This document shows positions 20,779 through 60,023 of a DNA stretch of 63,991 nt, one piece after another (position 1 is the stretch's first letter; each line of letters begins with the position of its first letter). The notes below the pieces were generated by a model. It did no database searches. It had not been told where the DNA came from and saw nothing but the letters and a program-made list of their open reading frames with translations. This stretch comes from Fibrobacter succinogenes (GTDB taxonomy: Bacteria; Fibrobacterota; Fibrobacteria; Fibrobacterales; Fibrobacteraceae). Made by a program: the position numbers and the translations under genes. The stretch covers positions 1 through 63,991 of the forward strand of contig CACWNW010000012.1 of assembly GCA_902762305.1 (NCBI GenBank), read 5' to 3'.

Positions 20779-20848
20779 ACAATGAAATTATATTTTACAC
20801 TCTGGATGGGTGTACATAATTTATCTTTGGCGTATAAAGGAGTCTTTT

Positions 20849-23451: not shown

Positions 23452-23486
23452 AAAAAGGAAAGCGTCCGGATGTCCGGACGCTTTCC
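23452..23486 (-). terminator. terminator of the six-gene outer-membrane operon
   Basis: A perfect palindrome with 13-14-bp arms (GGAAAGCGTCCGGA and its complement, 23457-23486), followed on the minus strand by five T. It closes the operon running 33253 to 23508. Confidence 0.95.
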
Positions 23487-23507: not shown

Positions 23508-24563
23508 TTACTTCTTCGCAGACTTGTAGCTCACGCCGGGGCGGAGTTCCAGGCCAATCGTCACGAGGACAGAGACGATGGGTTCATGGTGGTCCTGCGA
23601 CACGTCGTAGACCGCCACGCCGGCATAGCCCTTGTTCTTCACGTTCACGGCGACAGCCTTCACGGAAGGAATGCCCATGAACACGATGGCTTCTTCCTTG
23701 CTCACAGCGATTTCGGACTGGGAGTCGGAATCGAAAGTAACCTTGTAGTCGGGCGTATCGAACTTGCTCATGAGTTCCTTATACGGCAGGTAACCTTCGT
23801 TACCGCTACCCGTTCCCTGGTGCGAAGAACCAAAGCCCGTAGCGCCCAGGAAGGACTTGCCGTAGAAGTAGACCACCGGCACAAGGAGGCTCTTCTGGAT
23901 GCCTGCATCCGCAGCCTTCTCGAGCGTTTCGGCAATAATCTTGCCACCCTGGTTCGGGACGAGCGTAGAATTATCTTCGTTCATCTGGTCGGGAATGAAC
24001 ACGTTGATGTAAGAGAGCTTGTTCATCACCTCGGCGGTGTACGGTTCCATCGCGGCCAGCGGATACATGGTAGATGCCACGATGATACCGGAGAAGGCAT
24101 CGACGAGGGCGTTCATCATCTTCGCATAGTCGGCGGCATCGTCGGCAGTGATGTTCTGCCAGTCGAGTTCCACGCCGTTCGCCTTATGTTCGCCAACCCA
24201 AGTCTTGAGGTTGTTGACAAAAGCAGCAAGAGCTTCGTCGGAACCGGCAATCGCCTTCAGGTTGCCTTCGGCTTCCACGCCACCAACAGAAACAACAAGC
24301 TTCACATTGTTGGCTGCGCACATGTTCGCGAGCGAGTCGTAGTTCGGGGCGTCGTTTTCATCGGGGAAAGCGAGCGAGCCGTCTTCGGCAGGCATGAGCG
24401 AAGAATAGTGGATATGGGTAACCGTATTGTAGCGGATATCCTTCGGGTAGAACTGGGAATACTGGCTCCAGTAGGGGAAATAGCCAATCACCTTGTCGGC
24501 CGCAGCCTGGGACATAGCCACGCAGGCAACCGCAATTGTCGTTACAAAAAGTTTGAGTTTCAT
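23508..24563 (-). CDS. GH18-like protein lacking the catalytic glutamate
   Basis: A 351-residue exported protein (signal peptide ending QAAA). It has a GH18 fold: DKVIGYFPYWSQY at strand 1, VVSVGG at strand 3, and the strand-4 motif at residues 129-136 reading NGVELDWQ. In active GH18 chitinases this motif is DGxDxDWE, and its final Glu is the proton donor. Here that residue is Gln136 and the second Asp is Glu132, so hydrolysis is unlikely. Such GH18 pseudoenzymes usually bind glycans or other enzymes. It is the last gene of the operon, 14 nt after the lipoprotein gene. The C-terminus (HHEPIVSVLVTIGLELRPG) is beta-like. Confidence 0.85.
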   Translation of the reverse strand: MKLKLFVTTIAVACVAMSQAAADKVIGYFPYWSQYSQFYPKDIRYNTVTHIHYSSLMPAEDGSLAFPDENDAPNYDSLANMCAANNVKLVVSVGGVEAEGNLKAIAGSDEALAAFVNNLKTWVGEHKANGVELDWQNITADDAADYAKMMNALVDAFSGIIVASTMYPLAAMEPYTAEVMNKLSYINVFIPDQMNEDNSTLVPNQGGKIIAETLEKAADAGIQKSLLVPVVYFYGKSFLGATGFGSSHQGTGSGNEGYLPYKELMSKFDTPDYKVTFDSDSQSEIAVSKEEAIVFMGIPSVKAVAVNVKNKGYAGVAVYDVSQDHHEPIVSVLVTIGLELRPGVSYKSAKK

Positions 24564-24577
24564 AGTAATCCCACCTT

Positions 24578-25390
24578 TTATTCAGTAACAGAACTTGAAC
24601 TTTCCGCAACGGGTTCCGTTGCAGAACTGGATTCGGGTTCGGTGCTTTCACCTTCGCTGGACTCGGGTTCAGCCACCTCGGAGGAACTGGAATCGCCTTC
24701 GACAGCCTCAGAAGAACTGGAGTCGCCTTCGGTCACAGTTTCAGAAGATTCAGGAGCGGCCTCGGAACTGGAACTTTCCGGAATGATGACAGGGCATTCA
24801 TCCAAGACCTTGTCGCAGTCGAAACAGTAGGTCACACCATCGAGAGCACAGTACTTATGGTTGCTATACCCCACTTTTGCACTCTCGCTGGCCTGGCATT
24901 CGCCCTTCTTCACGAGTTTCGCCAAGTCACCTTCGCCACACATGCGGTAAGGGCGACCTTCGATCTTGCCATAGGCGATATATTGCATTTCGAACACAGC
25001 CGAGTCAAGCGTAAGGGTATCGAACACCACATACTCGCTATCGACTCCATTAATATTGAATGACTGGAGGTAAGCCGTGTAATTATCATTCATCTTAAAG
25101 TCAAAATTGGCTTCGGTGAATCCGGCATGCTCGAGCGCAATCTTCTTCAAGGTCGCAGAATCGCTCATGAACGATTCCAGGTCGGAAGGCTTGCCCGATT
25201 TAGCGTTCATAATTGCGACCTGATCCCTAATCTGAAGAGCTCGGAGATCGGGGTTTACACGAACAAATTCAGAAGTATTCCAGTCTGACGGGAAGTTTTC
25301 GGCTTCCGGATTACTGACTTCCAAGGAGGAACATGCCAGGAGCGCAATGGTCACGCCGGCAGCAAGAAGAGAAATCTTAAAATTCTTCAT
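24578..25390 (-). CDS. acidic Ser-rich lipoprotein of the outer-membrane operon
   Basis: A 270-residue lipoprotein with lipobox LLAC (Cys20). Residues ~30-200 are an unrecognised domain with six cysteines near its end (MCGEGD, GECQ, YCALDGVTYCFDCDK, DEC). The last ~65 residues are repeats of ESSSSE/GDSSSSEA type, a highly acidic flexible tail. This is unusual, because in other Fibrobacter lipoproteins the Ser-rich part usually follows the lipobox. Short gaps to both neighbours (12 and 14 nt) place it in the operon. Function unknown. Confidence 0.75.
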   Translation of the reverse strand: MKNFKISLLAAGVTIALLACSSLEVSNPEAENFPSDWNTSEFVRVNPDLRALQIRDQVAIMNAKSGKPSDLESFMSDSATLKKIALEHAGFTEANFDFKMNDNYTAYLQSFNINGVDSEYVVFDTLTLDSAVFEMQYIAYGKIEGRPYRMCGEGDLAKLVKKGECQASESAKVGYSNHKYCALDGVTYCFDCDKVLDECPVIIPESSSSEAAPESSETVTEGDSSSSEAVEGDSSSSEVAEPESSEGESTEPESSSATEPVAESSSSVTE

Positions 25391-25402
25391 TTTTCGACCT
25401 CA

Positions 25403-27547
25403 CTAGAAATTAACCGTCACATCGGCGGAGATAATGTTCTTGTCGACAGAAAGTTCTTTGTCTGCCACAGCACCGGTAGCGGCATCCGCCAACACCTTGT
25501 AATCCACGGAGTTCTTCAGGAGACCATAACGGATGGTCACGTAGGACTCGGGAGCAATGCGGAACTTGGGACCAGCAAGGACGAGGACTTCGTCAACCTT
25601 CTGGATAAACCCGCTACCCACCGGGAGACCCGCAATGCCTAAGCCAAGGGCATCCCCCTCAAACTTCTTATTCAAGAGTTGAGCTCCGACCTGGAGACCA
25701 ATCGGGCCCCAAATATCAGCAGTAAGCCCGCCGACAATGCGCTGAGACGAACGCTTCAGGTAGGAATTTTCGGTGGCCTTTTCGTAAGAACCCGAAACTT
25801 CGAGCTTACGTTCTATGGAAGGAACAAGGCGGCCAACATTCACGCCAAGGCCCACGCCAATCGTCGTAAACTTGTTGTCGCTCGCTTCGGCTGTGTACTG
25901 GGAGAAGCGGACATTCAGCGTGATGGCGTCCATCCAATCCGCATCGAGAGATGCCGCAAAGCCCTTACGGTCAGGTGTTGCCAGGCCAAAAGGCAGAGCG
26001 AGGTTCACGGACGGGTCCATCAGAATGAGCGCCTGATTAGCCTCGAGGTTCCTCATGGTATTGGCATCGTAGCCGTTGCGGTAGAAATGGGCAAGCTCGT
26101 AGTTGTTGAATAGCCTGTAGAGGTGATCCTTATTTTCGGAAGAACCCGAACGCACTGTATTCGTGCTCGAAGTCATAATTGTCGCGGCCGTCAGCAGGTC
26201 CGTGTTGTAGACCATGAAGTAGAGGTTTTCGAGGTTGCCCGAGGCAAAGTTCGAAGCCACAGTCTGGTCGGCATCGCCGTAGAGTGCGTTCGCGTTGAAG
26301 ATAATCCCGTTGTTCGTGTAATTCGGAGAAGAAGCAAGTTCGGACCAGAACTCCTTGTCGTTCTGCAAGTAGGAAGCATTCAACTTGAAGCTAAAGCCGG
26401 AGAACGAGCCTTCCACGTAAGGGTTAACATTGAAAGCGGTTCCCTTGGTATCAAAGAAGTGTTCCGTAAATCTTCCATAAGCCGCATCACCTACCGTTTG
26501 CATACTTGTAGCCATATATATGGTACCTTCCAGAGGCCCTGACGCCCCATCCTCCTTGAGAACGTGCTTGACAGGATTTGTGATCTTCATAACATCGGCA
26601 TCAACATTCCACCATGACATGGCATATTCGCCATTCAAGCCAAAGTGCACCGGCAAGCCGGAGAGCAGCTTCTGCGAATCGAATCCCAACTCGGCAGAAA
26701 AGACGCTGTTGTCATCATAAATGATGGTGTCTTTCGAGGGCAAATCGCGAGAACGCGTAGTCTGGCGGCGGTCCAAGGCTCCAACATAGTTCGCGCCAAG
26801 ATTCACGCCAAAGGTGCTGATTCCGGCACGGAGACCGTAAGCGTAGCGGTCTGCCCAGTCGAAGTCAAAGAACACCTGATCGTTCTTCTTGGCCGTGTTA
26901 CGCATACGGGCGCCTGTACCCTGCGCATAGATATCGTCGATAACGCCCACGGCACCGCTATGGAACTCGGCATTCAGGCCCTGCATGAGGCGGCGGGATG
27001 TCGTGTCGAGATTGCGGTAAGAAAGAGCTTCGACGCGATTCTGGCGGAAAATTTCCGGCTCCTGCAGGATTTCGAACTGCGGGGTATTGATGGTGAGCGG
27101 AGAATAGCCGACACGCATATAACCCAAGTTGAAATCGACATGGTTGTTCAAAATCTTGCCATCGTAGCTGAACCAGTGGCCAATAACCGGGTTGTTGTTC
27201 TCGTCCACAGCGCTCTGCCAATCCTTATGGAGGCGCACCTGCACATCGAGGCGGGTCTCGGAAGAAGGCTGGGCGAGGAACCTGAGGTTTACATCGGTAA
27301 AGGCCTGATTTTCCTGAGTAGCAGATTTATCGGTAAACTGCTCGGAAGACGCCATAGAAGTGAGGGCGCCCGCTTTGGCCGTTCCGCTCAGGCGAAGCCC
27401 GAGTATGGCCTTGTTCAAGGAATCCAGTTTCTGCAAGAACGATGTCTGCTTTACGACGACAGCGGAATCTGCTTCGGCGAATGCCGCCGTAGCAGAGAAC
27501 ATGAGCGCGGTCGCAAAAATGAGCGTGGTCTTCTTATTATTCATCAT
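25403..27547 (-). CDS. outer-membrane beta-barrel protein, operon paralogue 1
   Basis: About 714 residues with a signal peptide ending AAFAEA and dense alternating beta strands to a C-terminal ADVTVNF, an outer-membrane barrel signature ending in Phe. Near residues 155-210 it carries GYSPLTINTP, EPEIFRQNR and RLMQGLNAEF. The next gene has the matching YSPLTLFAPD, EPQVFARKR and NLQGVNLQF, so the two are paralogues. GGGAGGGG is too close to the ATG at 27553, so the ATG at 27547 is preferred. It may be a transport or binding barrel; no plug or TonB box is seen. Confidence 0.75.
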   Translation of the reverse strand: MMNNKKTTLIFATALMFSATAAFAEADSAVVVKQTSFLQKLDSLNKAILGLRLSGTAKAGALTSMASSEQFTDKSATQENQAFTDVNLRFLAQPSSETRLDVQVRLHKDWQSAVDENNNPVIGHWFSYDGKILNNHVDFNLGYMRVGYSPLTINTPQFEILQEPEIFRQNRVEALSYRNLDTTSRRLMQGLNAEFHSGAVGVIDDIYAQGTGARMRNTAKKNDQVFFDFDWADRYAYGLRAGISTFGVNLGANYVGALDRRQTTRSRDLPSKDTIIYDDNSVFSAELGFDSQKLLSGLPVHFGLNGEYAMSWWNVDADVMKITNPVKHVLKEDGASGPLEGTIYMATSMQTVGDAAYGRFTEHFFDTKGTAFNVNPYVEGSFSGFSFKLNASYLQNDKEFWSELASSPNYTNNGIIFNANALYGDADQTVASNFASGNLENLYFMVYNTDLLTAATIMTSSTNTVRSGSSENKDHLYRLFNNYELAHFYRNGYDANTMRNLEANQALILMDPSVNLALPFGLATPDRKGFAASLDADWMDAITLNVRFSQYTAEASDNKFTTIGVGLGVNVGRLVPSIERKLEVSGSYEKATENSYLKRSSQRIVGGLTADIWGPIGLQVGAQLLNKKFEGDALGLGIAGLPVGSGFIQKVDEVLVLAGPKFRIAPESYVTIRYGLLKNSVDYKVLADAATGAVADKELSVDKNIISADVTVNF

Positions 27548-27562
27548 TTTCATCCCCTCCCA

Positions 27563-29929
27563 TTAAAATTCCACGTTAATGGAGGCTTCAACAATAAATT
27601 GTGAGAACTTGCTGGTAAACTCGTTTTCCCAAACGTAACTATGCTTTTTAGTTTCTTTATCATAGGTATCACCAGCATAATCCGGCAGGTTCACAGCCTC
27701 ATCGGCATTCCCAAGTGAGGTATTATAGGTGTTGTTTACCGATATCATACCCATGTTCAAGGAGAGCCAGGAGTGCTTGTCGAGCGAATAGTCGGCACCG
27801 ACCATCCACTGCATCTGTGTACCCTTGACTAGCGGAGCAATCGGAGCGATAGCGGCATAATCCGTAACGCTCTGCTTCTGCTGGGTGCTGTTCATATGCA
27901 TGCTCACCATCTGGAAACCAGCGGTAAGGCCGAGGCGCGGCAGGTACTGTACGTAGAACCCGGCATTGAGGAATTCCGTCTTCATTTCGGCCTTGCCGGG
28001 AGCCGGGACACCGAGAAGGGCATAAATAGCCGGGTCATATTCCAAGCTACGCTCGGAATGGCGGTAAGAGAGGCTTAATTCGAGCGGTCTAGAGAAACCG
28101 AGCACCTTGAACACGTCGGCCTTCAATCCGCCACCGTATTCCATATACGCGACATTCTTAAAGCCATAAAGCGGAGAGGTCTGCGAGAAGGCGCCAAACA
28201 GGGCCTGGGCTTCAAACCAATCCCCCATGTTGCCGATTAAAGTCGCGCGACCGCCCGTACGGTTTGCCGTAGCCAAGCCATTCGGAAGAATCATCTGGAT
28301 TGCAGGATCGGCCATCGCGTTCAAGAGAGCAATCTGCGCCTTGGAATAGACGTTTCCTGTCCAGGAGTTCTTGTTATACGGGGCAATGTTGTAGCTCTGG
28401 GACTGTTTATCTGGATTATTGAAAGCCTTGTCATCGGTCCTCATTTCACGCGACACCGGAGCGAACTTCGGAGCGAAATTGTAGAGGGCGTCGAAGGTGG
28501 AGTAAAGCGGGGAATTCACGCTATACTTGACAGTCAAACCATCAAAGTCGGAATTCAAGATGCGCTGGGCAAAGAACTTGGGCGACTGAGCAAGGTTGTT
28601 GAACCAGAGGCTATCGTTCCTGATTACATCACCAACTATGCGGATGCTCCAATCGGAGGCCTTAAAGCCAGCATTGATGTTCGCGTTGATGGCCAAGCCG
28701 TTATCGGATTCGGTCTTCCGTTCCATCTTGAATTCACCCGTAACAGGATCGAGCGCGAAGTATTCGTCCGCAGAGAAAGCACCATCACCATTAACGTCCA
28801 GGGGCACAGCATCCTTAGCGTCGGCACTCGGATGAACGGGCTCCGGAGCCCTCTTAACCTGATCCATCGACAAGGCGGCTTCGGCCGTAAAGTCCAAGAT
28901 GAGGCTCTTGCTGCCTACGATGCCAGCGATATCGCCGCCCAAACGGCCAGCAGAGACAAGAGTCTTCTGCGGGTCGAGTTCGAACGGATTGATATCATCA
29001 ATCTTGTAAGGGTCAGTTGCATCCAATGTCAATTGACCGCTGGTGTTAGCATGGCGATAGGTGTAAGTGTAACTATCTTCGTTATCGAAGATGTACATCG
29101 CTGTCAACCCCACGTAGAGGTTCTTGTCGAGCGGCAACAGTTCGAAGTTTCCTGCCACAAGGAACTTGTCGGTATTAGAAGCCTGCGTCATCCCCGGAAG
29201 GGTGTTATCCGAAATAACACCGCCTTCAGAACTGACAGGAAGGATATTGCCTTCGGCACCGGTAAGGTCGAGTGCCTGGGCACGGTTCAGTCTCGCGAAG
29301 ATACCTTCGGCACGTACTTGCCCGAGAGATTCGCTCAAGTCTGCACGGAACTGCAGGTTCACACCCTGGAGGTTTCTCTGGTTCCCCTCAAGGAGCTGCT
29401 GCTTTTCGGCCATGTGACGCTTGCGGGCAAACACCTGGGGTTCATACAAGATGTCGACATCCGGGGCGAACAACGTGAGCGGAGAATACTGCTGACGGAA
29501 ATCACCCACAGTCCAGTAGAAGTTGTTGCCAATCTGGCCCTCGACATTGATCCAGGGAACTGCGATAAACTTCGCGGCAGAGGCGAAGTAATCCTGCATG
29601 CCCGCATAAAGGCGGAGCATGGCGTTTGCTCGGACACTTTCCCACGGGCGGAAACCAAAGTTAAAGTCCGCAGTCACAAACTCAACCCTTTCCACATCGG
29701 GCATAGGGACCTGACCGTAGCGGTTTTGAGAAGTACCGAAATCAGATGTCTGCGCGACACCACGAATAGCACCTGTAACTTCGAGGCCACGGTGTGCGTT
29801 GGTAGAATCGACCTTGCTCGCTATCTTGTCCTGATTGTCGGCCACAGAAGCTGCAGCGACACCGGCCGTGAGCGCAAGGACACTCAAAGTTCTAGTCATC
29901 ATTTTTGAAGCACTTTTGTTGAAAATCAT
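27563..29929 (-). CDS. outer-membrane beta-barrel protein, operon paralogue 2
   Basis: A 788-residue exported protein (leader SVLALTAGVAAASVA) made almost wholly of amphipathic beta strands and ending EASINVEF. It shares the YSPLT...EPQVF block with its downstream neighbour. An acidic stretch around residues 375-400 (DVNGDGAFSADEYFALD) matches an EF-hand or dockerin-like calcium loop inside an extracellular loop. It lies in the middle of the six-gene operon, 15 nt from the next gene. It probably sits in the outer membrane; its substrate is unknown. Confidence 0.75.
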   Translation of the reverse strand: MIFNKSASKMMTRTLSVLALTAGVAAASVADNQDKIASKVDSTNAHRGLEVTGAIRGVAQTSDFGTSQNRYGQVPMPDVERVEFVTADFNFGFRPWESVRANAMLRLYAGMQDYFASAAKFIAVPWINVEGQIGNNFYWTVGDFRQQYSPLTLFAPDVDILYEPQVFARKRHMAEKQQLLEGNQRNLQGVNLQFRADLSESLGQVRAEGIFARLNRAQALDLTGAEGNILPVSSEGGVISDNTLPGMTQASNTDKFLVAGNFELLPLDKNLYVGLTAMYIFDNEDSYTYTYRHANTSGQLTLDATDPYKIDDINPFELDPQKTLVSAGRLGGDIAGIVGSKSLILDFTAEAALSMDQVKRAPEPVHPSADAKDAVPLDVNGDGAFSADEYFALDPVTGEFKMERKTESDNGLAINANINAGFKASDWSIRIVGDVIRNDSLWFNNLAQSPKFFAQRILNSDFDGLTVKYSVNSPLYSTFDALYNFAPKFAPVSREMRTDDKAFNNPDKQSQSYNIAPYNKNSWTGNVYSKAQIALLNAMADPAIQMILPNGLATANRTGGRATLIGNMGDWFEAQALFGAFSQTSPLYGFKNVAYMEYGGGLKADVFKVLGFSRPLELSLSYRHSERSLEYDPAIYALLGVPAPGKAEMKTEFLNAGFYVQYLPRLGLTAGFQMVSMHMNSTQQKQSVTDYAAIAPIAPLVKGTQMQWMVGADYSLDKHSWLSLNMGMISVNNTYNTSLGNADEAVNLPDYAGDTYDKETKKHSYVWENEFTSKFSQFIVEASINVEF

Positions 29930-29947
29930 ACTCTTATCGCGCCTCCA

Positions 29948-32506
29948 TTAGAACCATACTTTAGTTTCGGCGTAGATGTAATGGCCCTGCCAGTCATTGT
30001 CAGGCACAGTCTCGTCGGAATGGGTAGCCCACTTGTAGCGGACATGGATACCGGCACGGTCGGCAAAGTTCCAGTCGAAACCGAGGCCGAGTGCCGTTTC
30101 AAGATAGTTGATAGGAGTCTTGCGGTAGGACGCCAAGTTCACATTTTTGAAGTAGTCCTTTGTTTTATCCAGGCCATTATCGATGTTGTCGATAATGTAG
30201 CCGTATTCCGAGCGGAACGTTTCGAGACCGAGGATACCGACGAGGTGGAAGGTCGGCGTCACCGCGATGGCGGGTTCAAGCTGACCGTAGAAGCTCCACA
30301 GAAGCATGTCCTTCTGGGATTCGCTGTAGGCAATCGGAGCGATAGTCTTCGAAACACCGGAAATGGAGGCGTAGCCACTCATCACGATGTTCCTATCGGT
30401 ACCAAACCAGTGGCCGATATCATAACCACCCGCGAGAGAGAGGTAGCTAGACCACTTGGTGTGGCTCGGAACAACAGAATCCCTAACCTGCTCAGCATTT
30501 TCGTAAGCAACGAAGGTTTCCCACATTTCCCAGGTACCGCCACGGAGGCCACCCTGCTGACGGGTCATCTTGATACCCGGGGTGAGCACACCGGCACGTT
30601 CCACATAGCCATTGGCATTGGCGTTACCGGAGTCGGCCCAGAAGAGCGGCTTGTGCTTGGTCCAGGAGTTCGTAGATTCCCAGAGGTTACGGCCATTCAG
30701 ACGGTAATTGAAGAGAAGGACATCATTGCCTTCCTCAACTTGGCTATGCAAGCCGTACTGGATATCGAGGTGACCACGATTGAATTCCGGTTCAATCTTC
30801 AGGTTGATACCCGCCATGTTGGGGGTGTAGCGCATGGAACCGGCATTGAGAGAGAACTCATCCTTTCGCCAAGCCAAGAAGCGCGAGGGGTTAGACATGG
30901 AGAACGGAGAGTAGAAGTTCTTCTGGAGGAAGATGGCTTCGAGAGTCATCGGCCAGCCTTCGAGGTACTTGCTCTGAGCCTTCACGTACACACCGACCTG
31001 CGGGATATTCCATACAGATTCGTAGGAGTTCTTCTGGTATCCGCCATTAGTAGACAAGGCACCCACACCCTTGAAGAACTTGAGGGAATCCGTCATGCTC
31101 AAGGCCACATCAGCCATAAGGTAGAATTTCGGAGTAATATTGCCCTTGAAGTCGACAGATGCCACATGCGTATTCATGATGGTCGGGTCGACACTCATCT
31201 TCTCGTACTGGCTATAGAATTCGTTTTCATAGATGACAGCCTCGTCAAAGACGACGCTCATATAGTTGATACCGACCGAGAGGTTGTCCGCAATCTTGTT
31301 CTTCGCAATGCGGCCATGGTAGACGGCGCCACGGAAATCGTAGTCACCGGACATTTCGAGTTCACCCTGCAGACCACCGTACATGCGCAAGCCATCGCGC
31401 GTACCGATGTCCATGTCGGCCGGCTGGGAAATCATCGCCTGTGCGGTAAGGTCGAACGGGAGCTGGTAAACGCTCATGAACACGCCACCGAAGCTTCTGT
31501 TGGTCCAGAATGCACGGCCACCTTCCTTAACCGGCTTGAACACTTTTTCCTTGTAGTAAGTGCTCACAGTCTTTTCGTCTTCGAAGGTTTCGTACACCCA
31601 ACCGAAGCGGGGCATGGTCTCGCGTTCCCACATGGTAAGCGGAGAAGAGTTCGCCCAGATAACACCACCCGCCGTGACATAGGCACCGAACACGCCAGCG
31701 CGGATATCGACACCGAAGTTCATCTCTTCGTCAATCGTAGAGGAGTAGTAGTCGGTAGAGTGGTCGAACAGCACGCGTTCGTTAGACGTGGGTACGTTCG
31801 TCGGCTGAGAACCGAGATTGTTGGAGAAGAAGCCCGAGAGGTCGAACGGGAACGTGAGGTTCGTCCAGAGGGTCATGTAGGAGTTCGGCATCGCAACGAT
31901 GTTCGCCTTAAACATAGCGTCGACCGAGGTACGAGCCTTATCGGAAGCAAAGAGTTCGGAAGCTTCCGGATAGCGGAAGTCCTTTACACGGAAGGCCATG
32001 AAACCAGAAACCGCGAGAGGAGCGTCATCCTTGCCCATGAGCGTGGATTCCATGTTCTCGGCAAGGTTATCCACATTGCCTTCGGCAATTTCGAGCTGCT
32101 TTTCAGCGGAAAGTGTCGCGGGAGCATCGACCACGGCTGCAGGTACAGACGCAGGGGCAGCAGAAGCGAATTCCTTCTTGGGAGCTTCCTCGGGTGCCGG
32201 TTCGGCGGCGGCTTCTTCAACCGGAGCGGGTTCTTCGACAGCAGCCTCTTCTACCGGGGCAGCTTCTTCAGCAGGAGCAGATTCTTCTGGGGCAGCGGCT
32301 TCCTCTACGGGAGCGGCCTCTTCGGCAGGGGCAGCTTCTTCGGTTGCCGCACTTTCCATTTCACTAGAAGCCTCTTCGGCGGGGGCTACAGTCTCTTCCA
32401 CCGCTTCGGTCTCGGGAGCGCTGGCATCCAGTGCATCCTCAGATTCCTGAGCAAAAGCGAGGGAAGAGCAAAGCAAAGTCGTAAAGAGTAACGGTAATTT
32501 ACGCAT
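29948..32506 (-). CDS. outer-membrane beta-barrel protein with Ala/Glu/Pro-rich N-terminus, operon paralogue 3
   Basis: An 852-residue protein. After the signal peptide, residues ~25-115 are almost only Ala, Glu, Pro and Val in AEEAAPVEEAA-type repeats, long enough to span part of the periplasm. The rest is barrel-like and ends HYIYAETKVWF. The motif NSSPLTMWERE near residue 285 recalls the YSPLT block of the two downstream barrels. AAGAGG precedes the ATG at 32506. The tail could contact peptidoglycan or an energising complex, but this is speculation. Confidence 0.75.
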   Translation of the reverse strand: MRKLPLLFTTLLCSSLAFAQESEDALDASAPETEAVEETVAPAEEASSEMESAATEEAAPAEEAAPVEEAAAPEESAPAEEAAPVEEAAVEEPAPVEEAAAEPAPEEAPKKEFASAAPASVPAAVVDAPATLSAEKQLEIAEGNVDNLAENMESTLMGKDDAPLAVSGFMAFRVKDFRYPEASELFASDKARTSVDAMFKANIVAMPNSYMTLWTNLTFPFDLSGFFSNNLGSQPTNVPTSNERVLFDHSTDYYSSTIDEEMNFGVDIRAGVFGAYVTAGGVIWANSSPLTMWERETMPRFGWVYETFEDEKTVSTYYKEKVFKPVKEGGRAFWTNRSFGGVFMSVYQLPFDLTAQAMISQPADMDIGTRDGLRMYGGLQGELEMSGDYDFRGAVYHGRIAKNKIADNLSVGINYMSVVFDEAVIYENEFYSQYEKMSVDPTIMNTHVASVDFKGNITPKFYLMADVALSMTDSLKFFKGVGALSTNGGYQKNSYESVWNIPQVGVYVKAQSKYLEGWPMTLEAIFLQKNFYSPFSMSNPSRFLAWRKDEFSLNAGSMRYTPNMAGINLKIEPEFNRGHLDIQYGLHSQVEEGNDVLLFNYRLNGRNLWESTNSWTKHKPLFWADSGNANANGYVERAGVLTPGIKMTRQQGGLRGGTWEMWETFVAYENAEQVRDSVVPSHTKWSSYLSLAGGYDIGHWFGTDRNIVMSGYASISGVSKTIAPIAYSESQKDMLLWSFYGQLEPAIAVTPTFHLVGILGLETFRSEYGYIIDNIDNGLDKTKDYFKNVNLASYRKTPINYLETALGLGFDWNFADRAGIHVRYKWATHSDETVPDNDWQGHYIYAETKVWF

Positions 32507-32515
32507 GAGGACCTC

Positions 32516-33253
32516 TTAAATTGCGTTGCGGAACGGGTAGTTAGCCGGGCCTTCGTAAGGCTTGCCGTGCTTCTTGATTACGATATCGTCAATCCAGACC
32601 TTGAAGGACTCGTTCTCGTCCTTGCGGACTTCGAGACGGAAGCCCTTGAAGTTCGACCAGGCAAACGGGAGCATCACTTCGCGAGTGTTCTTGGCATCCC
32701 AGTACACGCCGGTCATGCCGAAAAGCTTGAGGGGAATGCTAAAATGCTTCCATTCCGTGGTAATTTCACCGAGGCTCTTGGAACGGAGTTTGACCTGCAG
32801 GGATTCACCATTGCTCTTCACGCCGTCATCGACGAGCACGAACAGGGCGTTTTCGCCACCCTGGGCACCCTTGATCCAGAACTCGAGGACGCCTTCTTCC
32901 AGGTACGGGGTCAGGTCCACGGAACCGGCGATACAGATGGCCACACCGGAATAGTCGCTTGCGATAAGCTCGATCTCCATGGAAAGGGCTCCTTCCATAG
33001 CGTACTTATCCGTGAGGACCGGTTCGGGGTTTTCGCGCGGATACTGGTAGGTATATCCACCGCCACGGGGAATGGCTTCACGCATAACGACGCTCACCAC
33101 GTCCTTGTCGGGGCGGAACTGTTTGGCCTCGCGCGTGACGAAGCGGGAATTATCTCTATCCCTGTAATCGCTGAATGAAGCAAAGGAGAAAGACGCAAGA
33201 AGAAGCGAGCCCACGGCGCACTTCCAGATGATGGTCTGCAGATGTGATTTCAT
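32516..33253 (-). CDS. exported carbohydrate-binding-like beta-sandwich protein, first gene of operon
   Basis: A 245-residue exported protein (leader GSLLLASFSFASF). Residues ~75-230 look like a CBM/galactose-binding jelly roll: YSGVAICIAGSVDL, GVLEFWIKGAQGG, WKHFSIPLKLFG and FKVWIDDIVIKK, the last being the usual final strand of CBM11/CIA30-like modules. The ATG at 33253 is used; the longer frame begins with TTG. It starts the operon whose products are otherwise outer-membrane or surface proteins, so it is probably their periplasmic or surface glycan-binding partner. Confidence 0.7.
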   Translation of the reverse strand: MKSHLQTIIWKCAVGSLLLASFSFASFSDYRDRDNSRFVTREAKQFRPDKDVVSVVMREAIPRGGGYTYQYPRENPEPVLTDKYAMEGALSMEIELIASDYSGVAICIAGSVDLTPYLEEGVLEFWIKGAQGGENALFVLVDDGVKSNGESLQVKLRSKSLGEITTEWKHFSIPLKLFGMTGVYWDAKNTREVMLPFAWSNFKGFRLEVRKDENESFKVWIDDIVIKKHGKPYEGPANYPFRNAI

Positions 33254-33502
33254 AAGGTACAAAATCTCCAAATTCGATGGCTTACAATATAACTTGTTTT
33301 TTGGACATTGTACTGCATCTTTTCTTGAAAAAACGGATACAAAGGTGAAATCACCGGAAAAAAAGTGTTAAATAACATGTTTTTTTGATTTTTTGCAAAT
33401 TATCACTCGTTTACTATCGTAACCGAATTATTTTAAAAACACTTTCCCACAAGGGCGAATATGTCTAAATTTCAGTATAGAACAACCAACGACAGGTAAC
33501 CC

Positions 33503-34681
33503 ATGCTTTTTTACAAACCCATTATCGCTTTATCGGCCATATTTCTTCTCGCAAGCTGCAATTCCGGCAGCGGAGCCTTGAACAGGGCTGTTGATGATGA
33601 TGATGACAAGAAAGTCGTAACCCACCCGGCTGTCGACTATTCCAAGGGCCGCGCCATGAACCAGAGGCTCGGTCACGGCATCAACCTCGGCAATTCCTGG
33701 GAATCCGCAGGCACCGGCGCCCATCCGGATTGCGGCTGGGGCAACTGCATCCAGGACGAAGACTTCCAGATTATCAAGGACGCTGGTTTCAACTCCGTAC
33801 GCATTCCCGTACGCTGGGAACAGGACGTCGACGTGAACGGCGTCATCGACCCGATACGCCTTGCCGGAGTCAAGGAAGATATCGCGATTGCGCATAGCAA
33901 AGGGCTTGCCGTTATCGTAAACTTCCACCATCACATGAACATGAACTATGCCGCCGTCAATGCCGAAAAGGATTCCGCAAACTACAAGGAAGAACTGGCA
34001 AAATTCTCCAGCATGTGGACCCAAGTGGCAACGGCCCTGAACGAATTCCCCGACAGCCTGCTCGTGTTCGAAATCATGAACGAACCGCACGACATTAAGA
34101 AAAAAGCCTTCGTGAACGAAATCATGCTTGCCGGATACAACGCCATCCGCGCCGTGACCCTGACCAAGACCATCATGTTCGAAGCCAATGGTTACTCCAA
34201 GTTCGGCGCCATCAAGCAGCTCGACCTGCCCCAGGACGGCAACATCATCGCAAGCGGACACTACTACGAACCCTACGAGTTTACCCACCAGGGAACCGCA
34301 GATATGTACAAGTGCGGCGCAGAAATCACAAGTTCAAACTTGAGCCAGATCGCCAAGGACTTCAAGTCGTACGTCGACTCCGCCAAGGTGTACTTCCCCG
34401 ACATAGACGGCAAGCACAGCGTGCCTCTGAACATGGGTGAATTCGGCGCCATCGGACGCACGGGTTCCTTCTGCAACAGCAAGGCCCCCAGCGAAGCCAT
34501 GCGCGCCCAGTGGACAAGCTACGTCATCAGGGCAGCCGAGAGCTACGGCATCAGCTGGCACTACTGGGCTTACGGGAAAACCAGCGGTTTCCAGGCATAC
34601 AACCAGGATGACGGCGAATGGTTCCCCGAAATGAAGAAGGTGTTCGACTCCTTCACGAGCAATCCGTTCCCCACCCTATAA
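33503..34681 (+). CDS. GH5 endoglucanase-type lipoprotein
   Basis: A 392-residue lipoprotein (lipobox LASC, Cys19) with a run of five Asp in the linker. The GH5 barrel covers ~48-385: GHGINLGNSWES at strand 1, NSVRIPVRWEQ, VNFHHHMN, acid/base Glu194 in FEIMNEPHD and nucleophile Glu313 in LNMGEFGAIG. This pattern is typical of GH5 beta-1,4-glucanases acting on cellulose, xyloglucan or mannan. It is transcribed divergently from the outer-membrane operon across about 250 bp, which suggests linked regulation. It overlaps no other gene and ends 28 bp from lpxA. Confidence 0.92.
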   Translation: MLFYKPIIALSAIFLLASCNSGSGALNRAVDDDDDKKVVTHPAVDYSKGRAMNQRLGHGINLGNSWESAGTGAHPDCGWGNCIQDEDFQIIKDAGFNSVRIPVRWEQDVDVNGVIDPIRLAGVKEDIAIAHSKGLAVIVNFHHHMNMNYAAVNAEKDSANYKEELAKFSSMWTQVATALNEFPDSLLVFEIMNEPHDIKKKAFVNEIMLAGYNAIRAVTLTKTIMFEANGYSKFGAIKQLDLPQDGNIIASGHYYEPYEFTHQGTADMYKCGAEITSSNLSQIAKDFKSYVDSAKVYFPDIDGKHSVPLNMGEFGAIGRTGSFCNSKAPSEAMRAQWTSYVIRAAESYGISWHYWAYGKTSGFQAYNQDDGEWFPEMKKVFDSFTSNPFPTL

Positions 34682-54132: not shown

Positions 54133-54942
54133 TTACTTCTTGCTACGATGGCTGTTCTTGATCCATTCGGTCTTGTGGACTTCGGGGATATCGTCGAGCA
54201 GGCGAAGCGTATGCGGTTCGTTCGTGTTGTCGAGCACCTCGGCAGGGGTACCCTGGTTCACGATCTTGCCGTCGTGCATGATGAAGATACGGTCCGAAAC
54301 GTAGTTAGCAAGGCCGATATCGTGGGTCACGAACACCACGGTCATCTTCAGCTCGTCTTTCAACTTGCGGAGGTAATCGAGGATGTTGGCGCGCACGCAG
54401 GCGTCCACCATGGAGGTGGCTTCGTCGGCAATCAGGACCTTCGGGCGGAGCGCGAAGATACGGGCCAAAAGCATACGCTGCATCTGGCCACCCGAGAGCT
54501 CGAACGGGTACTTGCCTTCGATATCGGCAGGCGTCACGTTCACAGCCATGAGGCCTTCGTCCACGCGGCGGCGGATTTCGTCCTTGCTCGGCTTGTTCTT
54601 CAGGATGTTCAGGGAATCTTCCAGCTGGCTACGGATGGTAAAGAACTGGTTGAAGCATCCGAACGGGTCCTGGAACACGGACTGCACTTCGTTCCAGTGT
54701 TCCTTCAGGTTCTTGATGGGCTTGTCGCGGTACAGGAACTGGCCGCGAGTCGGCTTGTAGAGGCCCAGCATGATTTTCGCGAGCACGGACTTGCCGCAGC
54801 CGGAACCACCCACGATGGAGATGAATTCCTCGTCATAGATATCAAAGGAGACATCCTTCACGGCGGTCTTCAGCGTCTTACCGGCACCGAAGTCCTTGCT
54901 GATGCGCTTGGCGGAAAAAACAACGGGCTTATCACTTAGCAT
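54133..54942 (-). CDS. ABC transporter ATP-binding protein, OppF/DppF type
   Basis: A 269-residue ATPase: Walker A GGSGCGKSV, Q-loop SVFQDPFGCFN, signature LSGGQMQR, Walker B VLIADEATS and the H-loop THD. The sequence fits the F subunit of Opp/Dpp importers but lacks the C-terminal Cys-rich domain. It overlaps the D subunit gene by 11 bp and is the last gene of the operon. It energises the importer formed with the permeases at 55945-58175. Confidence 0.9.
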   Translation of the reverse strand: MLSDKPVVFSAKRISKDFGAGKTLKTAVKDVSFDIYDEEFISIVGGSGCGKSVLAKIMLGLYKPTRGQFLYRDKPIKNLKEHWNEVQSVFQDPFGCFNQFFTIRSQLEDSLNILKNKPSKDEIRRRVDEGLMAVNVTPADIEGKYPFELSGGQMQRMLLARIFALRPKVLIADEATSMVDACVRANILDYLRKLKDELKMTVVFVTHDIGLANYVSDRIFIMHDGKIVNQGTPAEVLDNTNEPHTLRLLDDIPEVHKTEWIKNSHRSKK

Positions 54943-55933
54943 AATCGCACCTCACGTCACGATCACCGACAATGCGGAGATTCTGAGTATTCTTCTTGCA
55001 ATCGGGGCATGCCTTGCTGCAACGCGGAGCGAAGCGGCAACCGACAATTTCCTTCTTGAGGCTCGGGGGAGCGCCTTCGATGGCCACCGGGTGGCGACCA
55101 CGCTGGCTCGCTTCCGTACTGAGCATGGCGCCCATGAGGGCCTGCGTGTACGGATGGCGCGGATCCTTGACGACCTGTTCGGCCGTACCCTTTTCGACGA
55201 ATTCGCCCGCGTACATGATGGCGATGTTGTCGGCCACGTGGTACAGGAGCGGAAGTTCGTGGGTAATGAAGATCATCGTCGAGAAGATGCCCTTGTCAAG
55301 AAGATCGAAGATCATCTTGATCACTTCCTTCTGGGTAGACACGTCCAGAGCGGAAGTCGGTTCGTCGGCAATCACCATCTGCGGGTTGAGCAAGGTGGAG
55401 ATACCGATAACGGAACGCTGGCGTTCACCGGCGGTGAGCTGGATGGGGTAAGAATCGAGCACGCGCTTCGTGTCCATTCCGAACAGGTCGAAACGTTCAC
55501 AGAGGCGGTCGTAGATTTCCTTGTGGTCGAGCTTCTTGCCGGGCTGCTGGTGAGCGGCAATCACGTCGGCGGCGATGTCCTTGATCTTGCGGACAGGGTT
55601 CAGGGCGTTGAACGCACCCTGCGGAATCATCGAGACCTTCTGGGCGAGGACGTTCGCACGGACGTCTTCGACCTTGCGGTTCATGAGGGATTCCATTTCC
55701 TTGCCGTTCCACACGCGCACGTCGCTCTTGCCTTCGGGGTAGAGCGGCGGGATGCACATGCCCATGAGGCCAGACACGAGCGTGGACTTACCGCAACCGG
55801 ATTCACCGGCGATGCCGAGGATTTCGCCCTGCTTCATGGTGAAGCTGACGTTCGTCACGGCATGGGTCTTGTCGCCGAAGCGGCCCAGGTAAAACAGGCT
55901 GAGGTTTTCTACTTCAAAAACATTATCAGACAT
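54932..55933 (-). CDS. ABC transporter ATP-binding protein, OppD/DppD type
   Basis: A 333-residue ATPase: Walker A GESGCGKST, Walker B MVIADEPTSALDV and the typical C-terminal oligopeptide domain with FAPRCSKACPDCKK (Fe-S-type cysteine pattern). The signature reads LTAGERQR where family members usually have an SGG core, so the first Gly is replaced by Ala; such changes are seen in one half of asymmetric ABC pairs. It overlaps the F gene by 11 bp, consistent with a D-F heterodimer. Confidence 0.9.
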   Translation of the reverse strand: MSDNVFEVENLSLFYLGRFGDKTHAVTNVSFTMKQGEILGIAGESGCGKSTLVSGLMGMCIPPLYPEGKSDVRVWNGKEMESLMNRKVEDVRANVLAQKVSMIPQGAFNALNPVRKIKDIAADVIAAHQQPGKKLDHKEIYDRLCERFDLFGMDTKRVLDSYPIQLTAGERQRSVIGISTLLNPQMVIADEPTSALDVSTQKEVIKMIFDLLDKGIFSTMIFITHELPLLYHVADNIAIMYAGEFVEKGTAEQVVKDPRHPYTQALMGAMLSTEASQRGRHPVAIEGAPPSLKKEIVGCRFAPRCSKACPDCKKNTQNLRIVGDRDVRCDYAK

Positions 55934-55944
55934 TTAATCACCTC

Positions 55945-56790
55945 TTACTTGCGGAGCCTGGGGTTAAAGACACCTTCCATGGAAGTGTTGATCAGGTAAA
56001 GGGCGAACACCGTGAGGGTAATGATGATGGTTGCCGGGAGGAAGGCAATCCAGATACCACCCGAGAGGGCGCCGTTATCCTTGGCCTGGTTCAAGATGAT
56101 GCCGAGGCTCGTAGAATCCAGAGGACCGAGGCCGATCATGGAGATGGAAGCTTCGGAAAGGATACCCGAGGACACCTGCATGATGAACACCATGAACACA
56201 TAGGAAAGCAAATAGGGAAGCACGTGCTTCAGAACGATCGTGAGAGTCGAAGCACCGTTGATGCGTGCGAGCGCGATGTGGTCGCGGCTGCGCAGGGAGG
56301 ATGCCTGGGCACGCACGGCACGGGCAGACCAGCTCCACGCGGTAAGGCCGATGATAAGGCCAATGAGCGTCAGGGAGCGGCCGTCCTTCACAGCGGAGCT
56401 GATGAGCACGAGAATCACGAACTGCGGAATCACGATGAAGATGTTGGTGAGCATGTTCAGGACTTCGTCAATCCAGCCGCCGCGGAAACCGCCGAACAGG
56501 CCGACAAGCACACCGATCGTCGTCGCAATCACACCGGCGACAAGACCCACATAGAGCGAGGAACGAAGACCGGCGATGAGCAGCGACACGTAGTCGCGGC
56601 CAAGGTGGTCCGTACCGAGCAGGTGGTCTGCGCTGGAACCGGCGTAGGGGCCGGCCATCATGTCGCGGGCGTTGATATCCACATGGTAGAAGAGAGGTCC
56701 GAAGAGCGCAATCAGGAGCGTGATGAGGAAGATAGACACGCCGATCACGAACATCGGGGACTTGAGAAGATTTCTAAGAAGTTTACCCAT
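55945..56790 (-). CDS. ABC transporter permease, OppC/DppC type
   Basis: A 281-residue membrane protein with about six helices. The N-terminal part has the OppC_N pattern and the loop HLLGTDHLGRDYVSLLIAG; the coupling region is EAAxxxG-like (RINGASTLTIVLKHVLP). It starts 2 nt after the B subunit stop, so translation is coupled. Together with the B subunit it forms the pore. No unusual insertions. Confidence 0.92.
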   Translation of the reverse strand: MGKLLRNLLKSPMFVIGVSIFLITLLIALFGPLFYHVDINARDMMAGPYAGSSADHLLGTDHLGRDYVSLLIAGLRSSLYVGLVAGVIATTIGVLVGLFGGFRGGWIDEVLNMLTNIFIVIPQFVILVLISSAVKDGRSLTLIGLIIGLTAWSWSARAVRAQASSLRSRDHIALARINGASTLTIVLKHVLPYLLSYVFMVFIMQVSSGILSEASISMIGLGPLDSTSLGIILNQAKDNGALSGGIWIAFLPATIIITLTVFALYLINTSMEGVFNPRLRK

Positions 56791-56792
56791 GA

Positions 56793-58175
56793 TTACTTAC
56801 CTCCCATCTGGAGACCGGCCTTGACGCGCGGGTCAAAGACGGCAATCAAAACGTCGACAGCGAAGTTAGCGACGAGCACGCAGGTCGAAATCATGAGCGT
56901 GCAGCCCTGAATCGTAGCGTAGTCGTTCTGCTGGATGGCGGTAAGCATCGCCATACCGAGGCCCGGGTAAGAGAAGATCATTTCGGTAATGAGGGCGCCG
57001 CCCACCATCGCACCGAGGCTCTGGGCAAGGCCCGTGAGCTGCGGGAGCATGGCGTTACGGAACACGTAGCTGATAATCTTGCCTTCGCGGAGTCCGAGCC
57101 ACTTGGCGTACTTCATGTAGTCGGTACCGAGTTCGTAGATGGACATGGAGCGCATACCGGTTGCCTGACCAGAAAGAAGAATCGGGAACACGGAGAAGAA
57201 CGGCAGGATGTAGTAGAATCCGACGCTCTTGATGCAGTTCCAGTTGAACTGGAGTTCCGGAATATCTGGGCTATACGCGCCCATGGCCGGGAACCAGCCG
57301 AGCGTGATGGAGAAGAGCGCCACCAAGAGCATACCGAACACGAAGAACGGCACACCGTTGAGGAACATGGCGCACGGGAAGAACACCTTGTCGAAGATGC
57401 CGCGCTTGTATGCAGCGAAGGCACCGAGGAGGTTACCGACAATCCAGCCGAGGATAATGGTCGGGGCCTGGATAGCAAGGGTCCACGGGAGGGATTCCTT
57501 GATAATCTCGACAACCGGCTTCGGGTACTGGCTGTAAGAAAGGCCGAGGTCACCCTTGAAGACGTTCTTGATATAGACAAAGAACTGGGAAATGCCGGAA
57601 GCAAGTCTGGGGTCCGCCTTGCGCAAGACAGTATCGATCATGACAGTGTCCTGGTGTGCGGCCTGGATCTGCTCCATGACAGCAACCTGTTCGACCTTCG
57701 CAACCTTCTTCTTGGTCTTCGGGTCCTTTTCCATCACAGGCTTGCCCTTCGCATCGAGGACAGGCTTCTCTTCGAACACGGGATTACCTTGTTCGTCGAG
57801 CTTCTGGCGTTCGATCATCTTCGGCGAACCATCTTCGTTCACCTCGAGAACGGTCTTGAGCACCGGAGCGCCGTTTTCCCTCTTGACAACCTTGACCATC
57901 TTCACCTGGCCATTCTCGTCGACTTCGGGATCGTAAATCACGTTGCCCTGATCGTCAAGTTCGGCCATACCGAAGGCCTTGAGCAAGGTTTCCTTCTTGA
58001 GCTTGGCTTGTTCCGGAGAAAGGCCCTGGGCGGCCTTACCCATAATGATATCTACCGGGTTATTTTCACCCATACGCGGTAGAGTGAAGTTGATTGCGAC
58101 AGCTACGACGAATGTCAGAAGATACCAGAACGCCTTCTGCAAGACGTAGCGCAGCATGGGATACTGTTTAAGCAT
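56793..58175 (-). CDS. ABC transporter permease, OppB/DppB type, with a repeat-filled insert
   Basis: A 460-residue permease; family members are usually about 310-340. The core is standard (KAFWYLLTFVVAVAINFTLPRM, GDLGLSYSQYP, coupling loop EGKIISYVFRNAMLPQ). Between residues ~72 and ~185, in the first periplasmic loop, is an extra ~110 residues with six tandem units of 13-14 residues: DDQGNVIYDPEV, DENGQVKMVKVV, ENGAPVLKTVLE, NEDGSPKMIERQ, DEQGNPVFEEKPV and DAKGKPVMEKDP. The insert is charged and outside the pore; it may contact the binding protein. Confidence 0.9.
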   Translation of the reverse strand: MLKQYPMLRYVLQKAFWYLLTFVVAVAINFTLPRMGENNPVDIIMGKAAQGLSPEQAKLKKETLLKAFGMAELDDQGNVIYDPEVDENGQVKMVKVVKRENGAPVLKTVLEVNEDGSPKMIERQKLDEQGNPVFEEKPVLDAKGKPVMEKDPKTKKKVAKVEQVAVMEQIQAAHQDTVMIDTVLRKADPRLASGISQFFVYIKNVFKGDLGLSYSQYPKPVVEIIKESLPWTLAIQAPTIILGWIVGNLLGAFAAYKRGIFDKVFFPCAMFLNGVPFFVFGMLLVALFSITLGWFPAMGAYSPDIPELQFNWNCIKSVGFYYILPFFSVFPILLSGQATGMRSMSIYELGTDYMKYAKWLGLREGKIISYVFRNAMLPQLTGLAQSLGAMVGGALITEMIFSYPGLGMAMLTAIQQNDYATIQGCTLMISTCVLVANFAVDVLIAVFDPRVKAGLQMGGK

Positions 58176-58199
58176 TTATATTCCCTTCGTTCCTTTGTA

Positions 58200-60023
58200 T
58201 TACTTGAGCTTCAGGTTCCAGAGAACCTTCGTGCCAGAAGCGATCCACGGCAGCTGGGCCGGAGCGTAGGAGTTTTCGGCAGAGGGCCAGTTGGTCCAAA
58301 CGCGGTCGCTGAACTCGTAGTACTGTTCCGGGAGGTAAGCGAGCGGGATAGCCGGCTGGTCTTCCATGAAGATCTTGTTGAGTTCGCGGTAGGCTTCAGC
58401 CTTCTTGGCTTCGTCGGTCATGAGAGGAATTTCGGCAAGGAGCTTGTCCACTTCGGGGCGGAATTCCTTGGTACCCGGCTGGTTGTAACGGCCGATGTTG
58501 GTGCCGGCCCAGTCGCCGAGCTTCTGCCAGTCGCGGCTGGACATGACTTCGTTGAAGCGGCTCCACGGGAGAGACGGAGACACGTCGGCAGTCGGCTTGT
58601 GCATGATGAGGTCGAAGTTGCCGGTGCCCATGGCAGGCCAGTACTGACCGCCATCCACGAAACCTTCACGAACGTCGATACCGGCCTTGCGCATGCCTTC
58701 GACAGCGATGTTCACGATGGATTCCCAGTCGGTCCAGCCGGCCGGAGACGTGATGAAGAGGGTCGGGATCTTTTCGCCCTTGGCGTTTTCCATGTGGTCG
58801 AGAGAACCGTCGTCCTTGAACACGGACTTGTAGCCGGCTTCGGTAAGCATGGCCTTGACGGTGTTGAGACGTTCGGCTTCGTCAACGATGTCGAGCTTCA
58901 CGCCGACCTTCTGGTCTTCGGCGTTGATGTACTTGCCTTCGAGGTTCGTCGGCATGATGAGGCCCGGCTGCAACTGGGAAGTGTAACCGGAGAGAGCGAA
59001 CTGACGGATAGCGTTGTAGTCGATAGCCGTAGCGAGGGCACGACGGAAGCGCTTGTCGTTGAGGGGTTCCTTCATGGTGTTGATCATGAGCATCGGCATA
59101 GCGCCCGGAGTGAAGAACGGAGCATCGTTCAGCCAGGTGTGCACGCCGGCGCTCTTGAGGTCGCCAATACGCGGAATGAAGGACATAGAAGCATCGAGTT
59201 CGCCCTTGCGGAGAGCGATAGTGTTGTGTTCGTTGCTCTTGTAGATCGGGTGAACGATGTACTTCGGAGCCGGGAGCTTGCCTTCGTGGAGGGCAGCGTT
59301 GCCCCAGTAGTCGTCACGACGTTCGAGGATAATCTTGTTCGCAGAGTAGTCCTTGATGGTGTACGGGCCGGAAACGACCGGGTTCTTGTCCATCATGAGC
59401 TTCTTGACTTCGTCGAGGCCCTTTTCGGCAACGAGCGGTTCGAACACGTGAGCCGGCACGATACGGATGGCCTGGAGGAGGTCCATCACAGAAAGCGGGT
59501 TGTTGCGCTTGTCCTTAGCCACAATGAAGGAGATGCGTTCGGCAACGGGAGCGTCCGCCGCTGCCGGTTCGGCCTTGAGGGTATCCACGTGGATGGCAGA
59601 AATCTGTTCGGTGGTGTTGATGGAGCCATTCGTGAAGATGAACTTCACGTCGTTGGAGTTCACCTGCTTGCCGTCGCTCCACTTGGCAGCCGGGTTCAAG
59701 TCGACCACGATGCTGTCGTTGTTGGAAAGTTCCGGAACGAGCGTACCGAGAAGCGATTCCACCTGACCGTTCAGGGTGTTGTAGGTGACGAGCGGTTCAT
59801 AGACCAGGTTGAAACGGCCACCGACGGGCCATGCGGCCATCCAGCTTTCGGCGAGCGGGTTGAACGTAGCGGGAGCACCCCACTGCTGGCCGGACAAGTA
59901 AAGAGTTTGCTGGCGAGGCAATGCGCCTTCGGCTGCCTGCTGCTCGCTGTTGTCGCACCCGAAAAGGGCGGCCGTCGCCGAAACCACGACAGCGGTCTTG
60001 ACAATCGATTTCATTCCAATCAT
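58200..60023 (-). CDS. ABC transporter solute-binding protein family 5 lipoprotein
   Basis: A 607-residue lipoprotein (lipobox LFGC). It has the SBP_bac_5 fold: NLVYEPLVTYN, AKWSDGKQVNSNDVKF, GPYTIKDYSANKIILERRDDYWG, NDKRFRRALATAIDY, and a C-terminal LAYLPEQYYEFSDRVWTNW. It is the first gene of the importer operon, 24 nt before the permease. Family 5 proteins bind peptides in most bacteria, but a subgroup in Thermotoga and archaea binds cello-oligosaccharides. Trp-rich ends and this cellulolytic setting make a sugar ligand plausible. AGAGG precedes the start at 60023. Confidence 0.9.
   Translation of the reverse strand: MIGMKSIVKTAVVVSATAALFGCDNSEQQAAEGALPRQQTLYLSGQQWGAPATFNPLAESWMAAWPVGGRFNLVYEPLVTYNTLNGQVESLLGTLVPELSNNDSIVVDLNPAAKWSDGKQVNSNDVKFIFTNGSINTTEQISAIHVDTLKAEPAAADAPVAERISFIVAKDKRNNPLSVMDLLQAIRIVPAHVFEPLVAEKGLDEVKKLMMDKNPVVSGPYTIKDYSANKIILERRDDYWGNAALHEGKLPAPKYIVHPIYKSNEHNTIALRKGELDASMSFIPRIGDLKSAGVHTWLNDAPFFTPGAMPMLMINTMKEPLNDKRFRRALATAIDYNAIRQFALSGYTSQLQPGLIMPTNLEGKYINAEDQKVGVKLDIVDEAERLNTVKAMLTEAGYKSVFKDDGSLDHMENAKGEKIPTLFITSPAGWTDWESIVNIAVEGMRKAGIDVREGFVDGGQYWPAMGTGNFDLIMHKPTADVSPSLPWSRFNEVMSSRDWQKLGDWAGTNIGRYNQPGTKEFRPEVDKLLAEIPLMTDEAKKAEAYRELNKIFMEDQPAIPLAYLPEQYYEFSDRVWTNWPSAENSYAPAQLPWIASGTKVLWNLKLK

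Follow-up and report, generated by a model that had tools for sequence, protein, structure and literature searches.

We identified, in a 63,991-nucleotide stretch of Fibrobacter succinogenes DNA (referred to in its entirety as the window), a six-gene operon that is a strong candidate for holding cellulose and taking up its pieces. Fibrobacter is a leading degrader of cellulose in the rumen and has neither a cellulosome nor SusCD. Its mode of cellodextrin transport has been stated to be unknown (PMC6851124). On balance, we lean toward a reading in which the operon encodes a SUS-like, constitutive outer-membrane complex of non-SUS proteins that would bind glucan and probably import cellodextrins. 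Four specific uncharacterized proteins are named here together with conserved partners and external loops, which makes the transport question testable.

Organization of the operon

Positions 23508 to 33253 of the window contain six minus-strand open reading frames (ORFs) with computed intergenic gaps of 9, 18, 9, 12, and 14 nt, transcribed in the order CBM30, OMC, OMB, OMA, lipoprotein, GH18. An earlier sequence-only reading of this DNA had described six minus-strand genes with gaps of 9 to 18 nt, a strong terminator at 23452 to 23486, and a GH5 lipoprotein gene starting divergently next door. The genes were recovered at the same coordinates and strand, the terminator by its pattern (stem at 23486 to 23457 on the minus strand), and the GH5 gene by domain match and lipobox. 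The features are as follows.

23457..23486, minus strand: predicted intrinsic terminator of the operon (pattern-based; 13-bp stem with 9 G-C pairs, T-run)
23508..24563, minus strand: GH18-fold pseudoenzyme (Pfam GH18, E = 5e-30), presumed orthologue of S85 Fisuc_1530/FSU_2012 (CBP-9, cellulose-binding)
24578..25390, minus strand: Cys-containing, Ser/Glu-rich, fast-evolving lipoprotein, recognized by ORF position and lipobox (LLAC)
25403..27553, minus strand: OMA, 716 aa, OMB paralogue (hhalign)
27563..29929, minus strand: OMB, 788 aa, predicted outer-membrane beta-barrel (AF2)
29948..32506, minus strand: OMC, 852 aa, predicted outer-membrane beta-barrel (AF2) with an acidic N-terminal extension and an SSPLTMW block
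32516..33253, minus strand: CBM30 protein, 245 aa, first gene (Pfam CBM30, E = 1e-17), presumed orthologue of S85 Fisuc_1525/FSU_2007
33286..33300, minus strand: promoter-like element AAAACAA-N2-TATATT upstream of the CBM30 gene, kept across relatives
33503..34681, plus strand: GH5 lipoprotein with lipobox LASC (Pfam Cellulase, E = 1.6e-41), presumed S85 Fisuc_1523/FSU_2005
54133..60023, minus strand: SBP5-oppB-oppC-oppF homologues, 47 to 68% identical to importers adjoining OMC-OMB in loci L045, L046, and L047

The upstream element was defined by aligning 40 upstream regions and taking columns more than 80% identical. The window contains one exact match, and three sites were found with at most two mismatches versus 1.1 expected. 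The element differs from the standard −35/−10 promoter and could be a general Fibrobacter promoter form.

Conservation across the Fibrobacterota

The grouping of the six genes is not due to chance, because their order recurs in sufficiently long loci among 79 Fibrobacterota loci. These were the loci kept from a scan that left 48 weaker matches outside the kept set; among the matches listed, all 79 kept loci belonged to Fibrobacterota (Fibrobacter, Fibrimonadales, and others). In Fibrobacteraceae loci of sufficient length, the genes ran CBM30-OMC-OMB-OMA-(lipoprotein)-GH18, and the GH5 gene was a conserved neighbor in this family, divergent in most loci. Gene order in relatives had been named at the outset as a check on the interpretation; when the comparison was run, the order was conserved, and the interpretation was not refuted. 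OMB homologues were detected in 131 of 151 Fibrobacterota genomes, and OMA was found in Fibrobacteraceae, order-level f2, and class f3 loci. OMA, OMB, and OMC are each single copy in the genome from which the window derives. Across 40 genomes, OMC occurred in 20 of 20 with OMB versus 1 of 20 without it, and a strong Cel51A-like match, over and above the CBM30 protein of the operon itself, occurred in 18 of 20 versus 2 of 20 (raw counts that ignore kinship in both cases).

One long ORF (L080:10001-14905) reads through OMC and OMB, but we did not accept this apparent fusion as a sign that the two interact: it has lost the last OMC strand, still has the OMB signal peptide, and is probably a deletion or an assembly error. 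Long open frames in three further genomes (G124, G100, and G051) were shown to be separate ORFs.

Predicted structure of the barrels

No Pfam or NCBIfam family was matched by OMA, OMB, or OMC. By profile comparison, OMA and OMB are clear paralogues (hhalign E = 9e-99 over 658 columns, a single-pair value without database calibration), whereas OMC is only a remote relative of the two, matched to OMA with 95.5% probability over 274 columns and weakly, at 54.5%, to OMB. The earlier description of three related barrels therefore stands for OMA and OMB and must be weakened for OMC. The YSPLT...EP[EQ][IV]F block on which it drew is present in OMA (YSPLTINTPQFEILQEPEIF) and OMB (YSPLTLFAPDVDILYEPQVF), with SSPLT in OMC.

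The AF2 model of OMB, built with 63 sequences, is a beta-barrel (pLDDT 80.8, pTM 0.81), as is that of OMC (pLDDT 66, pTM 0.68). By our reading, the OMB model fits 22 transmembrane strands; even connections are short and odd ones mostly long, as expected with both termini in the periplasm. The predicted topology places loops 147-183, which contains the YSPLT block, and 439-556 (118 residues) on the extracellular side. Conservation of these two loops (0.77 and 0.74, respectively) exceeds that of the strands (0.69) and of the other extracellular loops of at least 7 residues (0.17 to 0.58). In OMC, the most conserved part is residues 271-350, the SSPLTMW region.

The barrel of the OMB model begins at residue 49 and lacks a plug domain, and no Plug or TonB receptor match was obtained for OMA, OMB, or OMC in Pfam/NCBIfam at E ≤ 1. 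The OMB and OMC profiles likewise matched no PDB sequence at E ≤ 1. Structure searches with OMB and OMC returned generic large barrels (ushers, TonB receptors, AlgE, Occ porins, maltoporin, and chitoporin) ranked close together. The best match to both models in VIA-align was FimD (OMB, Z = 14.2, rmsd 4.5, 349 aligned; OMC, Z = 15.0, rmsd 4.8, 350 aligned), with porins and receptors close behind. Naming a transporter family by fold search was rejected, as no single family was clearly ahead.

CBM30 protein, lipoprotein, and GH18 pseudoenzyme

The first gene, initially described as a binding-like beta-sandwich, could be refined to CBM30, scoring 65.1 bits in Pfam against a cut-off of 27, with 1wmx/2c24 as relatives in the PDB. 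Its product has a signal peptide, no lipobox, and no match to a type IX secretion system (T9SS) tail in Pfam/NCBIfam. No other gene of the operon is as well conserved as CBM30 (87% median identity to 74 orthologues); OMC follows at 63%, then GH18 (62%), OMB (51%), and OMA (48%). We rejected the idea that this conservation is an outlier: in the same loci, CBM30 stands at 88%, a flanking LpxA-like gene at 77%, and a flanking glycosyltransferase, equally conserved, at 90%. By sequence comparison, CBM30 stands out only when it is judged as a secreted binding module.

The lipoprotein matched no Pfam family. In all 62 loci of 62, a lipoprotein-like ORF separates OMA from GH18, and 52 of them satisfy the lipobox regular expression.

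The last gene matched Pfam GH18 at 105.7 bits (cut-off, 29.6) and, like the CBM30 protein, gave no T9SS tail match in Pfam/NCBIfam. The active-site motif reads NGVELDWQ. The catalytic Glu of DxxDxDxE is absent from all 70 aligned GH18 sequences, the window included, and is replaced by Q (54), G (8), I (4), L (2), V (1), or D (1). By its motif, the protein is a pseudoenzyme, in agreement with the sequence-only reading, and the sole other GH18 found in the genome retains DGLDMDWE. If the loss of Glu also holds for F. succinogenes S85, the chitinase activity that has been linked to FSU_2012 (PMC6851124) would belong to another GH18.

The same barrels in other classes

In every locus examined from other classes, OMC-OMB is followed by a protein that carries CBM30 or matches the GH51 family. 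The usual partner after OMB is a Cel51A-like protein of about 1,050 aa of the CBM30-CBM30-CBM11-GH51 type; the GH51 label is based on full-length similarity to a protein of the window's own genome (C2:163670-166726) and the published domain order of Cel51A, and Pfam itself returned the CBMs and a weak GH79 match only. The first CBM30 region of this partner is 43% identical to the operon CBM30. In Fibrobacter, the Cel51A orthologue is encoded elsewhere in the genome and shares 49% identity with the GH51 encoded in the distant operons. Many of the other-class loci are flanked by SBP5 and oppB-oppC-oppD-oppF, and by GH94 or glycogen phosphorylase (Pfam SBP_bac_5, BPD_transp_1, ABC_tran/oligo_HPY, GH94, and Phosphorylase). 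The SBP5-oppB-oppC-oppF homologues of the window lie about 21 kb from the operon, and we infer from this homology a functional association of the importer with it.

The partner varies. In L042, L173, and L180-L182, the 1,050-aa cellulase is replaced by a shorter protein of 461 to 657 aa, which in L042 consists of CBM30 and CBM11 with no enzyme match. In two class f3 loci (L035 and L037, from genomes G084 and G079), CBM30-OMC-OMB-OMA is followed by GH20 and two GH18 proteins with intact motifs, and from this gene content we call the arrangement a chitin-type operon. In G079 there is, in addition, another OMC paired with a GH51-type partner (C76). With GH20 and two intact GH18 genes following the class f3 operon, cellulose may not be the ligand in every case, and this barrel family may also act on other beta-glycans.

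Presumed counterpart in F. succinogenes S85

From gene numbers, families, and sizes, the operon presumably corresponds to Fisuc_1525-1530 (FSU_2007-FSU_2012) of strain S85. Both begin with CBM30 (Fisuc_1525 = FSU_2007; PMC3079729, PMC4619616) and end with the GH18 (CBP-9 in S85); the S85 numbers leave room for four genes in between, and a GH5 gene stands beside (Fisuc_1523/FSU_2005; PMC4619616). Published work on S85 treats these genes only individually. No open paper was found that names FSU_2008-2011 (Fisuc_1526-1529). In the papers found, the two end proteins are known individually, the four middle genes are not discussed, and the set is not treated as an operon. FSU_2012 is recorded as cellulose-binding (PMC3079729, PMC6851124), and Fisuc_1525 was located in cell envelope and extracellular fractions (PMC4619616, PMC4668043).

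Expression of Fisuc_1530 is high and stable (PMC6204037), FSU_2012 was 1.3-fold down on cellulose (PMC6851124), and Fisuc_1525 was detected on both glucose and cellulose (PMC4619616). Cel51A (FSU_0382/Fisuc_3111) is constitutive and located in the outer membrane (PMC6204037). These reports suggest that expression of the known S85 members is constitutive rather than cellulose induced, and they partly contradict the original expectation that expression rises on cellulose (PMC6204037, PMC6851124, PMC4619616).

Comparison with SUS and Cytophaga systems

The best reading of the gene content is that the operon works like an outer-membrane system of the SUS/PUL kind and is not one by descent. As in SUS/PULs, outer-membrane barrels, a glycan-binding protein, and a lipoprotein share an operon, and in relatives' loci the barrels are linked to an enzyme, an importer, and a phosphorylase. 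The co-encoded surface glycan-binding protein typical of SUS has its equivalent in CBM30, which is kept in long loci and whose surface location is taken from published work. Unlike SUS/PULs, the operon has barrels of unrelated families without a TonB plug match, the importer is an ABC system, and expression appears constitutive. SusD (PF07980) was detected in 0 of 41 relatives, the window's own genome included, whereas the control was detected in Bacteroides; the same genome has other TonB-plug receptors (5 Plug matches). The sequence-only reading had proposed a SUS-like complex of proteins unrelated to SUS. The absence of SusD from the 41 genomes and of a plug match from the barrels bears out the second part. 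The first part is partly supported by the conserved barrel/CBM operon and by the cellodextrin-type locus (GH51, Opp, GH94) of other classes, and partly contradicted by published expression that looks constitutive.

The nearest functional analogue that we found, likened by description, is chu_1276-chu_1280 of Cytophaga hutchinsonii, an atypical cellulose PUL (PMC12016534). It likewise encodes two outer-membrane proteins (one a predicted barrel), an endoglucanase, and a cellulose-binding protein, CBM11-like and SGBP-B-like, that counts more by being present than by binding; canonical SusCD is not involved (PMC12016534). It differs in being cellulose induced, TBDT-like, and from another phylum (PMC12016534).

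Proposed function and alternatives

In the mechanism that we propose, the CBM30 protein and the GH18-derived pseudoenzyme would be docked on extracellular loops of OMC and OMB (and perhaps OMA) and would hold glucan chains at the surface of the cell. Released cellodextrins or threaded chain ends would cross the outer membrane through the barrels and, once in the periplasm, be handed to a family-5 binding protein with its Opp-type ABC importer and to a GH94 phosphorylase. The physical complex, the passage of glucan through the barrels, and the roles of OMA and the lipoprotein are what we infer. Such a complex is favored by the conserved order, the linkage of OMC-OMB to CBM30 cellulase, importer, and phosphorylase, the GH51 orthologue and importer homologues in the genome, the conserved external loops of OMB, the co-occurrence of OMB with OMC and Cel51A, and the cellulose binding and envelope location reported for S85. 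Several points count against it: structural searches single out no family among generic large barrels, TonB receptors are an alternative uptake route favored by others (PMC6851124), the CBM-only partners (as in L042) fit binding better than degradation, and there remain the class f3 GH20/GH18 context and the constitutive-looking published expression. A bolder and more tentative proposal is that OMC-OMB and CBM30 form a phylum-specific, non-SusCD machine that takes hold of individual cellulose chains or long cellodextrins and lets them through a barrel without a plug, supplying the missing outer-membrane step in the use of cellulose by Fibrobacter.

The main rival, that the barrels instead anchor or export CBM30-bearing proteins without a T9SS tail (CBM30, Cel51A, and the GH18 relative), serving adhesion and not uptake, seems to us rather unlikely. 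Whether or not an enzyme is attached, a CBM30 domain is what accompanies OMC-OMB most constantly, and its conservation matches that of flanking cytoplasmic genes, as if it were buried in contacts; CBM30 and GH18 have only a signal peptide yet occur extracellularly (PMC4668043), and pilus ushers head the VIA-align matches of both models (Z of 14 to 15). However, these usher matches are barely clear of porins and receptors, Pfam usher domains were not matched, and uptake gives a better account of the linkage to importer and phosphorylase genes seen in other classes. We give still less credence to a GlcNAc-based ligand (chitin or peptidoglycan oligosaccharides), with the Fibrobacter version acting in wall turnover, as FSU_2012 has been viewed (PMC6851124). 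Active-looking GH18 and GH20 genes after OMA in class f3 and the chitoporins among the structural matches fit this idea, but in Fibrobacteraceae the catalytic Glu is lost throughout, the genome's other, intact GH18 can account for chitinase activity, both CBM30 and the GH51/GH94 neighborhoods indicate beta-glucan, and FSU_2012 was reported to bind cellulose (PMC3079729). Least probable in our estimation, and very unlikely, is that the barrels are general constitutive porins merely cotranscribed with binding proteins, with no dedicated complex: apparent constitutive expression (PMC6204037, PMC4619616) and the presence of OMC/OMB in most genomes of the phylum would agree with it, whereas the identity and order of partners are maintained across classes, OMC/OMB are mostly missing where Cel51A is missing, and the conserved regions include external loops.

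Neighboring genes in the window

GH8 and GH5 cellulases (18634-20778 and 20810-23047, plus strand) adjoin the operon and have weak matches to T9SS type A sorting domains, whereas the CBM30 and GH18 proteins gave no such match. Three secreted proteins encoded farther along (13765-16059, 16321-17307, and 17436-18353, minus strand) share a start motif (LYWDGTTDTEGRV, FLWEGATDTQGKV, and FLWDGATDTEGRV) and are an apparent paralogous family.
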